Below the pieces are notes generated by a model that ran no database searches, was not told where the DNA came from, and saw only the letters and a program-made list of their open reading frames with translations. Made by a program: the position numbers and the translations under genes. Shown here piece by piece: positions 46,743 to 51,267 of a stretch of DNA of 64,000 nt. Location: the NCBI RefSeq assembly GCF_000024985.1, contig NC_013523.1:1984001-2048000 (forward strand), written 5' to 3'. Each line of letters begins with the position of its first letter. Positions within the stretch are counted from its first letter, which is position 1. Origin of the DNA: Sphaerobacter thermophilus DSM 20745 (GTDB lineage: Bacteria; Chloroflexota; Chloroflexia; Thermomicrobiales; Thermomicrobiaceae).

Positions 46743-46839
46743 GTAATGTGGAGCAAATAACCCGTCAGGCCGCCCCCAACTACCGGTCCCTCGGTTTGCC
46801 CCCGGCACGACCGCGGAGTGCGTTTTTCTCGCAAGATTC

Positions 46840-46868
46840 TTGCCAAGACTTCCCCCGCCCCCTATACT
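46840..46868 (+). promoter_or_regulatory. sigma-70-type promoter of rpoN
   Basis: TTGCCA (46840-46845), 17 bases, TATACT (46863-46868). Predicted start near 46875, a leader of about 130 bases. Confidence 0.7.
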
Positions 46869-47003
46869 GGGGACACAGGACGGGCACGCCCTCGTGTCCA
46901 CCGGCGTCGGTGGTTCGCCGGAGCCCCGCCTAAGAGTTGTACGACCCGGCCGGCCCACCAGACGCACGGTACGGGAGACCTACGAAGGTCAAGGAGGGTA
47001 TGC

Positions 47004-48422
47004 ATGCCGGGTATGGATGTCTCGATGGATCTCAGCCCCGAAATGCGGGTCTGGATCTCCCCCAGCCTCATCGAGGCCAACTACATCCTCAGCCTCTCAC
47101 GAATGGAGCTTCAGGAGGTCATCCAGCAGGAGTTGGAGGCCAACCCGGCACTGGAGATGGAGGAGCGGGAGATCTGCCCCGTTTGCGGCGGCGTGATCGA
47201 GGGGGGCTACTGCCCTACCTGTCTTATCGACCAGCGGGAGCAGCACCCCGAGGAGCCCTTCGAGGACTACCCGGAACAGCTCTACACCGCGGTCTCGCGG
47301 GAGCGCGACGACTCCGACGACTTCGACCCCATGACGCTCGTCGCCTCCGAGCAGACCCTCCAGGAGCAAATCCTCTCCGACGTCGCCACGCTGTGCCAGA
47401 ATGGGGATCTCAGCGTTGCCGAGTACCTGGTCAACTCCCTGGACGAGCGCGGCTTCATCGATGTCGACCTTGATGACGTTGCCGCCCGCTTCGGCCGCCC
47501 GCGGGAGTACGTCGACCGGGTGATCGAGTACATCCAGTCGGTGGCTCCGATCGGCGTCGGGGCACGCGACCTGCGCGAGTGCCTGCTGATCCAACTGCGC
47601 TATCTCAAGGACATCGGCGTCGAGGTGCCGCCCTTCGTCGAGCCGATCCTGCGCGACTACCTGGAGCAGTTCGGCGCCCATAAGTTTGGCTTCATCGCCA
47701 AAGAGCTGGGGATCACCAACGAGCAGGTCGAGGAAGCGCGCGACTTCATCCGCGCGCACCTCAACCCCTACCCGCTGCAGAGCCAGGAGGCGCGCTACTG
47801 GAAGACGCCGCTCCGCTCACCCTACGTCGCGCCTGACGTGGTGGTCAGCCTGCGCGACGGAGATCTGGTGGTCGAGGTCGTGGACACGCGGCATTTCCAC
47901 CTGCGGATGAACCCGCTCTACGCCCAGATCGCCCGCGAGATCGGCCGCAGCCGCACCCGCGGGGACTACAACGACACCGAGCGCCAGCACGTCCGCGAGT
48001 TCGTCAACCGTGCCAAGCTCTTCATCTCCAACATCAACCAGCGCCGGGAGACGCTCTACAAGATCTCGCGGTGCATCGTCGAGCTGCAGGAGGACTTCCT
48101 GCGCGGCGGCGTGCGCGAGCTGCGCCCGCTGACCCGGGCCGTCGTCGCTCAGCAGGTTGGGGTACACGAGTCGACCGTGAGCCGGGCCACCGCCAACAAG
48201 TTCGTGATGCTCCCCAACCGCAAGGTCATCCCGTTCAGCGACTTCTTCACGCCGTCGCTCAGCGTGAAGGACATCATCAAGGAGATGATCGAGCGCGAGA
48301 ACCAGCCGCTGACCGACCGTCGCATCTGCGACCTCCTGAGCAAGCAGGGCATCCGTATCGCCCGCCGCACCGTCGCCAAGTACCGCGCCGAGCTGGGCAT
48401 CCTCCCGAGCACCATGCGGTAG
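47004..48422 (+). CDS. rpoN: RNA polymerase sigma-54 factor with a zinc-ribbon insertion
   Basis: 472 residues from the ATG at 47004 behind AAGGAGGG. Region I (MRVWISPSLIEANYILSLSR to LEANPALEMEE) contacts activators. Immediately after it, C58-x2-C61 and C70-x2-C73 form a zinc ribbon (ICPVCGGVIEGGYCPTC) that ordinary RpoN proteins lack, in the usual acidic region II. The core-binding domain, helix-turn-helix (QQVGVHESTVSRATANKF) and RpoN box (ARRTVAKYR) are intact. Transcription by this factor needs AAA+ activators; none is encoded in the window. Confidence 0.93.
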   Translation: MPGMDVSMDLSPEMRVWISPSLIEANYILSLSRMELQEVIQQELEANPALEMEEREICPVCGGVIEGGYCPTCLIDQREQHPEEPFEDYPEQLYTAVSRERDDSDDFDPMTLVASEQTLQEQILSDVATLCQNGDLSVAEYLVNSLDERGFIDVDLDDVAARFGRPREYVDRVIEYIQSVAPIGVGARDLRECLLIQLRYLKDIGVEVPPFVEPILRDYLEQFGAHKFGFIAKELGITNEQVEEARDFIRAHLNPYPLQSQEARYWKTPLRSPYVAPDVVVSLRDGDLVVEVVDTRHFHLRMNPLYAQIAREIGRSRTRGDYNDTERQHVREFVNRAKLFISNINQRRETLYKISRCIVELQEDFLRGGVRELRPLTRAVVAQQVGVHESTVSRATANKFVMLPNRKVIPFSDFFTPSLSVKDIIKEMIERENQPLTDRRICDLLSKQGIRIARRTVAKYRAELGILPSTMR

Positions 48423-48528: not shown

Positions 48529-49575
48529 CTACACCACCGACACCACCGGCTCGCTCACCTCGGCATGCAGGCGAAGCAGCGCCGGGATGGACTCCGGCGG
48601 GCGGCGCCCCAGACCGCACTCGGTCGCGACGCCGAAGGTGGGGACCACTCGTCGAGCCGCCTCGATGCGGCGCCGGGTTCCCTCAACCCCGTCGGTGTCG
48701 TGAACCAGGCCCAGGTACAGCTCGGTCTCCGGGTCGAGCCGCAGATCGCGCAGCGGGGCGAAGTAGGCGTCGTCGCTGCGGTCGACCGGCACCGGCAGGT
48801 GGAGCCAGGTGATCGGCCGCTGCACCCCGGCGACGATGCGGTTTGCGAGGTCGGTCAGGAGCCGGGTGTCCTCCGGCTGCTTGAAATGCCTGTGGCCGGC
48901 ATCGCCGTAGCAGAGGTGGTAACCCAGCTCGACGTCGGCCGGGATGTAGTCGCCGATACGGACCAGCCGCTCGACGATCGCCTCGAGCGGGTTATCGAAG
49001 GCGGACGGAAAGGCCTGCTCCAGGATGCCGACTTCGACCGCCACGTCCCACTGGATCGCCAGTTCATCGTGCGGGATCGCTGCGAGGATCTCATCCACCT
49101 CGGCCAGCAGGCGTGCCTCGTAGGCCGGCTCGACCGCGGCCTGCGACTCGGGCTGCACATAGGCGGCGACCGACGCCAGGGGCGTGGGCAGCGAGACCTG
49201 GAAGCGGACGTGCGCCGGGATCGTCCCGGCCGCCTTGAGCTGCGTGAAGGTCGCGTACGACTCCCGAGCCGCGTCGGCGTAGCCCAGGTTGTCGAAGCGG
49301 ATCTCCGACGGGTCCACCCCGGCACGGAGTCGAAACTTTGGCGCGGGCACGTAGTCATCCGGGTTCGGCGGGATCACCTCGAGTTGCGGCACCCTGGCCA
49401 GCACGTCGTTCTGCCACCCGATCCAGTTGCTGCGCACGCCGGTCTCCCCGTCCGGGATGCGGCGCAGGCGGTCGCCGAGGATCCCGGCGGCAGTCTGGAA
49501 AACCTCGGCGGCATCGGCCAACGGGACGCTCCCGACGAGCAGCGCGCCACGCGGGGCCTCGAATTGGTTACTCAC
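48529..49575 (-). CDS. core-MetE-like methionine synthase family protein
   Basis: 348 residues from the GTG at 49575 behind GGAAGGAG. It corresponds to the C-terminal zinc half of cobalamin-independent methionine synthase only. Candidate zinc ligands are in GYHLCYGDAGH and ATECGLGRRP (compare CGLKTR in MetE). Short core-MetE proteins can take methyl groups from corrinoid or other donors rather than methyl-folate. Its leader carries a SAM riboswitch and a methionine T-box, strong independent support for a role in methionine synthesis. Confidence 0.85.
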   Translation of the reverse strand: MSNQFEAPRGALLVGSVPLADAAEVFQTAAGILGDRLRRIPDGETGVRSNWIGWQNDVLARVPQLEVIPPNPDDYVPAPKFRLRAGVDPSEIRFDNLGYADAARESYATFTQLKAAGTIPAHVRFQVSLPTPLASVAAYVQPESQAAVEPAYEARLLAEVDEILAAIPHDELAIQWDVAVEVGILEQAFPSAFDNPLEAIVERLVRIGDYIPADVELGYHLCYGDAGHRHFKQPEDTRLLTDLANRIVAGVQRPITWLHLPVPVDRSDDAYFAPLRDLRLDPETELYLGLVHDTDGVEGTRRRIEAARRVVPTFGVATECGLGRRPPESIPALLRLHAEVSEPVVSVV

Positions 49576-49684
49576 GGTCCGCTCCTTCCATACGGTCGTC
49601 GGGCGATCCGTACAGCACCCTGCGGGCTGCACGTTCGCCTTCCCACTCCACTGCCGGTGACTGACCTGGTGTGATTCGCCGGGG

Positions 49685-49968
49685 ACGAAGAGAGCCCGTC
49701 CCCGGATGCTGGGGACGGGCTCGCGAACCCGTGGTACCACCCCGCTTCGCCCGCGCCTCGCGACGCGCGCCTCGGTGGGTGCGGATGCACCCTGACCTGG
49801 ATAACGGAGGTCAACCCGGCGGGACCTACTGCGGGCGACTGCCCGGTTCAGACCGCGGCTCGGAGGTCATCTTCGGCGAGGGCCCGTGTGCCGCCTCTCA
49901 CCGTCGCGGCTCGCTGAGACCGTAGCGCCTCGCGTACTCTCCTCGTCAACGCCTTTGCGCTCGGCCGT
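49685..49968 (-). ncRNA. T-box leader with methionine specifier
   Basis: Minus-strand stem I begins with GACGAGGAGAGTA (AGTA at 49938-49935), followed by the AG-bulge and distal-loop signature CAGCGAGCCGCGACGGTGAG. The specifier loop GAAGATGACC presents ATG at 49870-49868, matching Met-tRNA. The T-box sequence GGGGTGGTACCACGGG is at about 49743-49728; its TGGT pairs with an ACCA end, as in Met-tRNA. A GC-rich terminator stem at 49722-49692 follows. Confidence 0.85.
49692..49722 (-). terminator. T-box-controlled terminator
   Basis: Arms GAGCCCGTCCCC/GGGGACGGGCTC around AGCATCC, then TCTTCGT. The T run is weak, but the stem is very stable. Confidence 0.7.
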
Positions 49969-49974
49969 GGGGCA

Positions 49975-50003
49975 ATAAAAAACCTCCACGGCATCGGTGG
50001 AGG
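49975..50003 (-). terminator. terminator of the SAM-I riboswitch
   Basis: Minus-strand CCTCCAC/GTGGAGG stem (50003-49997, 49989-49983) followed by six T residues. It sits between the SAM aptamer and the T-box. Confidence 0.9.
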
Positions 50004-50018
50004 ATCACAAACCGTGTC

Positions 50019-50118
50019 GCTCATCGTGCGGACACTGTCCGCCGGCATTGGCACCTGGCGCGGTACGCGCTGGTTGCCGGGCTTCGCAGGGCCGTTCCCT
50101 CCACCACTCTGGATGAGC
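50019..50118 (-). ncRNA. SAM-I (S-box) riboswitch aptamer
   Basis: P1 stem GCTCATC/GATGAGC (50118-50112 with 50025-50019). Conserved core CCAGAGTGGTGGAGGGA, CCGGCAACC and CAGGTGCCAATGCC in the S-box order. SAM binding should stabilise P1 and let the downstream terminator form, switching expression off. Confidence 0.93.
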
Positions 50119-50143
50119 AGAACTCTATTCAGTTGTGGGTCGG

Positions 50144-50172
50144 ATACTACGCCCCTCCGTCGCGGATGTCAA
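50144..50172 (-). promoter_or_regulatory. promoter of the riboswitch-metE unit
   Basis: Minus-strand TTGACA (50172-50167), 17 bases, TAGTAT (50149-50144). Predicted start near 50137, about 20 bases before the SAM aptamer. Confidence 0.8.
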
Positions 50173-50337
50173 TAGGTTTGGGCGGCATTTCCACGCCTGA
50201 TCCACCCAGCCCCGCCATGACGGGTTCGGAAATGTCTCTTCCGACCAGAGATCTTGGTCGCGTGAAGACGGTGAGAAGGCCGCGATCCGGGTATACTCTG
50301 GGATGGCCCGTTTTCGGCCGAGCAGGAAGGAGAGATG

Positions 50338-51267
50338 ATGTCCGGGTCGCGGAGTGCGCGCAGTATCCTCGCCGTGCAGCAGTTCGACCGCCCCTTCCTC
50401 GAACAGCTCTTCGCGCGCGCCGACGAGATGCGCGTGATTGTGGCTGCCGGCGGCTCCAACCGGCTCAGCGGCCGGATCATGGCGACCCTCTTCTTCGAAC
50501 CGAGCACGCGCACGCGCCTGAGCTTCGAGTCGGCGATGATCCGGCTCGGCGGGCAGGTCCTCTCGGCCGAGTACGCCCGGGAGACCTCGTCTGCGGCCAA
50601 GGGGGAGACCATCGAGGATACCGCGCGCATCGTCGAGTCGTACGCCGACGTCATCGTCATCCGCCACCCGGAGGCCGGCTCCGCCGCCCGCGCTGCGTCG
50701 GTGATCGACATCCCGGTCATCAACGCCGGGGATGGGCCACACGAGCACCCGACCCAGGCGCTGCTCGACCTCTACACCATCCGCTCGGAGCTCGGCCGGA
50801 TCGACGACCTGCGCATCGCCCTCGTCGGCGACCTCAAGTACGGTCGTGCGGCCCGCTCGCTCGCCCTCATCCTGACGCAGTGCCGGGGGATTGAGTTGAC
50901 CTTCGTCTCACCGCCGAACGTCCGCATGGGCAACGACGTCACCGCCGCGCTGGCGGCAGCCGGGGTCCGCTTCCGCGAGGAGAGCGACCTGTCGCGGGTC
51001 CTGCCGGAGGTCGACGTCGTCTACCAGACCCGCATCCAGCACGAGCGCTTCACCTCGGAGGAGGAGTACGAGGCCGCGCGGGGACTCTACGTCATCGACG
51101 CCGCGAGCCTCCGCCTGATGCATCCGAACGCGATCCTGATGCACCCGCTGCCCCGCGTGGACGAAATCGCCCCCGAGGTCGATCTCGACCCGCGCGCCGC
51201 CTACTTCCGGCAGGCCAAGAACGGCGTCTACATCCGCATGGCCCTGCTCGACATGCTCCTGGGGTAG
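50338..51267 (+). CDS. pyrB: aspartate carbamoyltransferase catalytic subunit
   Basis: Makes carbamoyl aspartate in pyrimidine synthesis. 309 residues from the ATG at 50338, five bases after AAGGAG (an ATG at 50335 is also in frame). Carbamoyl-phosphate loop FFEPSTRTRLSFE, HPTQALLDLYT, and MHPLPRVDEI are diagnostic. No pyrR, pyrC or regulatory pyrI adjoins. A TATACT -10 is at 50292-50297. Confidence 0.96.
   Translation: MSGSRSARSILAVQQFDRPFLEQLFARADEMRVIVAAGGSNRLSGRIMATLFFEPSTRTRLSFESAMIRLGGQVLSAEYARETSSAAKGETIEDTARIVESYADVIVIRHPEAGSAARAASVIDIPVINAGDGPHEHPTQALLDLYTIRSELGRIDDLRIALVGDLKYGRAARSLALILTQCRGIELTFVSPPNVRMGNDVTAALAAAGVRFREESDLSRVLPEVDVVYQTRIQHERFTSEEEYEAARGLYVIDAASLRLMHPNAILMHPLPRVDEIAPEVDLDPRAAYFRQAKNGVYIRMALLDMLLG

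Follow-up and report, generated by a model that had tools for sequence, protein, structure and literature searches.

On the minus strand of the window, the 64,000-nt stretch of Sphaerobacter thermophilus DNA analysed here, a gene for a 348-aa MetE-like protein is preceded by a long regulatory leader (Table 1). Read from 50172 to 49575, the leader contains, in order, a promoter, a SAM-I aptamer, a terminator, a T-box, a second terminator, a Shine-Dalgarno sequence, and the GTG start of the gene. The next gene downstream is the convergent rpoN, so the MetE-like gene is apparently monocistronic; a divergent gene for an aspartate/ornithine carbamoyltransferase lies on the promoter side. The genome is made up of two replicons of 2,741,033 and 1,252,731 bases.

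Table 1. Features of the leader and its surroundings, with two further loci of the same genome. Positions are those of the window unless a locus is named.
Feature	Position	Strand	Basis
Sigma-70-like promoter, TTGACA-17-TAGTAT	50144..50172	-	Promoter-pattern scan
SAM-I (S-box) aptamer	50018..50119	-	RF00162, 84.9 bits
GUGGAGG, 5ʹ strand of aptamer P2, likely antiterminator partner	50098..50104	-	Complementary to terminator 5ʹ arm
SAM-I terminator hairpin and U6 run	49977..50003	-	Stem 50003-49983 followed by six T
T-box leader (stem I, stem III, antiterminator)	49708..49958	-	RF00230, E 8.2e-14
Specifier codon AUG (Met)	49868..49870	-	Covariance-model alignment
T-box antiterminator	49711..49743	-	Predicted fold and pair counts
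UGGU acceptor-end bulge	49736..49739	-	Sequence
T-box terminator hairpin (stem 49722-49692) and U-poor tail UCUUCGUC	49684..49722	-	Predicted fold
Shine-Dalgarno GGAAGGAG	49582..49589	-	Sequence
GTG-started MetE-like gene, 348 aa	48529..49575	-	Open reading frame
rpoN, convergent neighbour	46818-48422	+	Neighbourhood reading
Aspartate/ornithine carbamoyltransferase gene, divergent neighbour	50335-51267	+	Neighbourhood reading
Distant MetE-type protein (PF01717, 69 bits)	G000:C2:424885-425868 (L192:1799-2893)	-	Pfam search
tRNA-Ala (GGC) in leuS T-box	L002:1556-1631; T-box G000:C1 1582271-1582564	-	Sequence

Two regulatory elements in series

The initial annotation, made from the sequence alone, had read a consensus promoter ahead of the leader. 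A promoter-pattern scan agrees, as TTGACA-17-TAGTAT is the sole promoter-like site in the 1.1 kb from 49400 to 50500, where 0.3 are expected by chance, and both its TTGACA and its -10 region are conserved in all seven tandem leaders of this kind that were found.

The SAM-I assignment is borne out by the covariance model RF00162, against which the aptamer scores 84.9 bits (gathering score 44.4). Behind it stands the terminator stem with six T residues that had been described, and this stem is invariant in 7/7 tandem leaders. Its 5ʹ arm, CCUCCAC, can pair with GUGGAGG, which lies in the P2 helix of the aptamer; the P2/terminator-arm duplex is computed at -19.3 kcal/mol and the terminator hairpin at -11.2. 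The complementarity is kept in the seven tandem leaders and in most SAM-I leaders of the bacterial family. Because the pairing is strong and kept in most of these leaders, P2 would be the antiterminator when SAM is not bound, and the pattern suggests P2-based antitermination in most SAM-I leaders of the family. Leaders carrying the complementarity include L009, L012, and L054-L062.

A complete T-box had also been claimed. The RF00230 match spans the full model length (1-219) at E 8.2e-14, in keeping with completeness, but its 65.7 bits fall below the Rfam gathering score of 93, so a default Rfam scan misses the T-box whereas an E-value search shows it. Below the same gathering score lie nine of the 11 T-boxes of the Sphaerobacter genome.

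The covariance-model alignment places AUG, a methionine codon, at the specifier position, as the initial annotation had it, and the codon is invariant in 7/7 tandem leaders. Seven other T-boxes of this genome serve to calibrate the position, since in each of them the codon fits the downstream gene (CTC for leuA and leuS, TGG for trpE and trpS, ATC for ileS, AAG for a LysX-like gene, and GTC for valS), these genes being named by eye from sequence and not by family search. One of these leaders, that of leuS, holds an apparently intact tRNA-Ala (GGC) gene between its stem I part and its antiterminator.

The UGGU bulge noted earlier is likewise present and invariant in all seven leaders, and it would pair with the ACCA-3ʹ end of tRNA. 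According to the predicted folds, the T-box antiterminator and terminator are mutually exclusive. Taken together, folds and pair counts indicate what is expected of a T-box, a UGGN bulge within an antiterminator that forms as the alternative to a terminator. The terminator has 12 pairs and folds at -28.3 kcal/mol. Pair counts, which rest on only seven related leader sequences, show two compensated pairs in this hairpin and some compensatory changes in the stem I helix, with the terminator and antiterminator cores invariant.

Whether the second hairpin works as a terminator bears on the kind of input that the T-box provides. The T-box could act on translation, or the hairpin could terminate poorly, and the second input would then be graded and not a gate. 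The tail behind the hairpin, UCUUCGUC, is indeed poor in U. However, the hairpin itself is a stable one, the metX copy of the tandem (described below) has a better U tail after its T-box hairpin, GTTTTGTATT, and some 95 nt separate the hairpin from the Shine-Dalgarno sequence, which is downstream and outside it. A translational T-box was considered and rejected, and a graded second input is, overall, unlikely. The T-box with a terminator of its own, as first described, is the preferred reading.

The SAM-I U-run ends at 49977 and the T-box match starts at 49958, which leaves a gap of 18 nt, not the roughly ten bases of the initial annotation. A hidden internal promoter in this region, or a failure of either element to function, would make the two elements independent units, with a single signal controlling the gene. 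Such a promoter has a precedent in the adenine/T-box tandem of Clostridium botulinum, in which a promoter lies between the elements (PMC9481103); moreover, promoters outside the sigma-70 consensus would escape the scan, and the T-box is the element that scores below gathering. Nevertheless, this arrangement is very improbable here. The sigma-70-like scan of 49400-50500 finds no promoter between the SAM-I element and the T-box, and only the 18 nt are available to hold one. Across the seven leaders this spacer is not conserved, whereas the upstream promoter is, and the functional features of both elements are kept in 7/7.

The leader is therefore best read as a gate with two inputs. Transcription would start upstream of the SAM-I element. 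With SAM bound, the aptamer would hold P2, and the CCUCCAC/GUGGAGG terminator would stop the transcript; with SAM low, the P2 strand would likely sequester the terminator arm, allowing the polymerase to continue. The T-box would then recognise uncharged tRNA-Met by its CAU anticodon (through the AUG specifier) and by its free ACCA end, and this binding would let the antiterminator form and the gene be transcribed. Expression would thus need low SAM and uncharged tRNA-Met at the same time. A gate of the reverse order was considered and rejected.

Related leaders and their history

The Sphaerobacter genome contains four SAM-I elements, two of which have a T-box behind them. The second tandem, which the initial annotation missed, precedes metX and then a gene for a PLP enzyme that is taken for metY. 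The other two SAM-I elements precede mtnA-ahcY and metNIQ, and no T-box motif was found behind either. Within one genome, then, mtnA-ahcY and metNIQ have SAM-only leaders, and the tandems stand ahead of de novo genes.

In total, the searches yielded seven tandem leaders, spread over five genomes from two genera. Relatives account for five of these: G112 carries two, before metX and the MetE-like gene, and G108, G110, and G111 carry one each, before metX. The second copy in the same genome and the five in relatives argue that the tandem is not a product of chance. Among 400 Chloroflexota genomes, a spaced tandem pattern matches only in Sphaerobacter and its sister genus g3; the pattern demands the same spacing and exact motifs, and other layouts would escape it. 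In the leader tree (n = 7), the Sphaerobacter metX and MetE-like leaders are sisters with support of 100/99, and the split between them is older than the divergence of the two species of this genus. Because the tree groups both leaders and their split predates the two species, the leader was duplicated within the Sphaerobacter lineage.

Tandems of this kind have been described. Sherlock et al. 2022 (PMC9481103) report SAM-I/T box(Met) tandems before metX and metY and predict for them NOT A AND B logic, the Boolean behaviour of tandems in that work being predicted; the table gives seven such tandems and the text two, and two are of the reverse order. T-box/SAM pairs also appear in a 2025 survey (PMC12452182). 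The initial annotation, aware of no characterisation of the pairing, was thus wrong in so far as the pairing is catalogued. No experimental study of a SAM-I/T-box(Met) tandem was found in the open papers searched, and "not characterised" may hold in this narrow, experimental sense; earlier mention of such tandems is possible. A double switch of a catalogued kind adds, by its presence alone, one more member.

The leader of the MetE-like gene shares with the catalogued tandems its two classes, their order, the separate expression platforms, a methionine-pathway target, and the predicted NOT A AND B logic. Those tandems target metX and metY, whereas this copy precedes an unannotated MetE-like gene. 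The metX-metY tandem of Sphaerobacter agrees with what was published for metX/metY and is possibly among those seven.

Other known leaders resemble this one in part. The SAM-I/AdoCbl tandem before metE in Bacillus clausii (PMC9481103) also sets SAM-I in series with a second switch ahead of a methionine synthase gene. However, its second input is a cobalamin riboswitch, an OFF switch that gives a NOR gate, and the second input in Sphaerobacter is a T-box, an ON switch. In four relatives (G114, G116, G117, and G125), SAM-I likewise lies upstream of a methionine synthase gene, but in these leaders no T-box was found and the gene is a full-length, two-domain metE; no Rfam match was found upstream of metE in g3, G113, G103, and G100. 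In Xanthomonas, a different system, the SAM-I riboswitch itself responds to uncharged initiator tRNA (PMC7270179).

The regulator is therefore real and ordinary in kind, and the target enzyme is the part worth following. New here are the second tandem before metX-metY, the duplication of the leader, and the MetE fold of the unannotated target. With its two paralogous leaders, the genome also offers a testable natural pair for the predicted SAM/tRNA-Met gate.

Fold and residues of the MetE-like protein

No Pfam or NCBIfam model matches the MetE-like protein or its relatives, and PF01717 matches none of 51 members of the family at E up to 10. Pfam rows below 1 for the protein (Tn5 dimerisation and others) are at chance level and were rejected; a PDB sequence search gave nothing useful. 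Its structure is more informative. An AlphaFold model built with a profile of 51 relatives reaches pLDDT 92, and the top Foldseek rows are MetE structures (E 5.7e-8). By VIA-align, the best match is 3RPD (Z 22.6 over 290 residues, rmsd 3.4, 16% identity), and MetE/MesD matches have Z 20-22.6 over 264-290 residues. MetE chains stand at Z ~20, ahead of MtaA-like (17.3) and UROD (16.8) structures, in top rows that hold only MetE, MtaA-like, and UROD relatives, so that families outside them may also match. Profile comparison by hhalign gives a probability of 0.5% against MetE of relatives and 78% (E 1.8e-5) against the distant PF01717 protein of the same genome. Judged by the fold of its model, the protein is a MetE catalytic domain, and the MetE-like label of the initial annotation is upheld by the fold search and the structural alignment.

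Residues S16, E44, D177, H220, C222, and C320 are invariant in the 51 relatives. By order and near-spacing they would correspond to six of the seven residues that bind homocysteine and zinc in E. coli MetE (S433, E484, D599, H641, C643, and C726; PMC7857596), a correspondence that comes from motif mapping and not from superposition. By the same mapping E665, the fourth zinc ligand of MetE, has no clear counterpart, and H259 in this role is only a guess.

The nearest known proteins are the core methionine synthases MesA-MesD, and 3RPD, the closest structural match of the model, is described as a MesD protein (Price et al. 2021, PMC7857596). The MetE-like protein is alike in its length of about 350 aa, in consisting of the MetE catalytic domain alone, and in apparently keeping most zinc and homocysteine residues. 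It differs in its low identity to 3RPD, the absence of a PF01717 match, and the unclear fourth zinc ligand. No MesX-like (DUF1852) partner was found in the immediate neighbourhood of the gene.

Homologues are widespread. A scan matched 295 candidates, and records L087-L166 come from Nocardia, Rokubacteria, Dehalococcoidia, Gammaproteobacteria, and others. One, 91% identical, is from a Sphaerobacter sp. (L114), and among the homologues, in a weak motif scan this record alone has both SAM and T-box motifs upstream.

Methionine synthases across the bacterial family

Gene content was surveyed in 21 genomes of the bacterial family by Pfam searches at E 0.001. The MetH reactivation domain PF02965 was found in none of them. 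Of the genomes with a completeness of 90% or more, all have full MetE (>400 bits) apart from S. thermophilus and G112, which have instead only a distant PF01717 protein of 69-71 bits; a few incomplete genomes also lack full MetE or hold fragments. The homocysteine-methyltransferase domain PF02574 occurs in most relatives, mostly in frames of ~650 aa that also hold MTHFR, and neither it nor the MTHFR fusion was found in the same two genomes; a weak MTHFR-like protein remains. PF02574 is also missing from G123, a good genome, which has MetE. The MetE-like gene occurs in only two of the 21 genomes, and these are again S. thermophilus and G112. Among well-assembled near relatives, therefore, the two carriers of the MetE-like gene are the only ones with neither full MetE nor MetH nor the homocysteine-methyltransferase/MTHFR fusion. 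This pattern of loss is one evolutionary event in one lineage of two sister species.

Given that the MetE-like gene shares its leader with metX-metY and, within the bacterial family, occurs only in the two members without the other enzymes, its product is most likely the methionine synthase of the two Sphaerobacter species, and possibly one with a folate-independent methyl donor. The initial annotation overlooked that this gene may encode the missing methionine synthase. The enzyme would be of a catalytic-domain-only MetE type without the folate-binding N-terminal domain, and it would have taken the place of the full-length MetE and the fusion that relatives keep, after a copy of the metX leader took control of its gene.

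The leader could also gate as proposed while the enzyme methylates another thiol, with methionine made by the distant PF01717 protein of the second replicon. The similarity of that protein is to vitamin B12-independent methionine synthases (PRK06520, 280 bits against a cut-off of 313), and inspection by eye shows the H-x-C and Cys motifs in it; the MetE-like family, moreover, is widespread with no methionine-gene neighbours in those homologues of other phyla that were looked at. This division of labour has a real but minor chance of being correct. Many relatives with full MetE also have the PF01717 protein, which therefore does not track the loss, and it lies under none of the four SAM-I elements; the MetE-like gene, by contrast, shares the metX-metY leader and is confined, within the bacterial family, to the two members without the other enzymes.

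A serial SAM/tRNA-Met gate controlling a gene that probably encodes the organism's methionine synthase is accordingly the reading favoured here, with good if incomplete confidence. More tentative, and somewhat short of likely, is the broader proposal that the protein founds one more family of folate-independent core methionine synthases, so far unrecognised and spread over many phyla, a member of which would have replaced MetE and the fusion in Sphaerobacter after duplication of the metX leader. Through the leader, a protein family missed by Pfam and NCBIfam is tied to a pathway. If the enzyme makes methionine, an apparent gap in the Sphaerobacter genome is filled, and an activity is hinted at for hundreds of unannotated homologues.

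The distant PF01717 protein is common to many members of the bacterial family, with or without MetE. In other families of the order, the MetE-like gene stands beside full MetE in G104, a point against the favoured reading, together with a PF02574 protein and no PF01717 in G102, and with what looks like a split MetE in G105.
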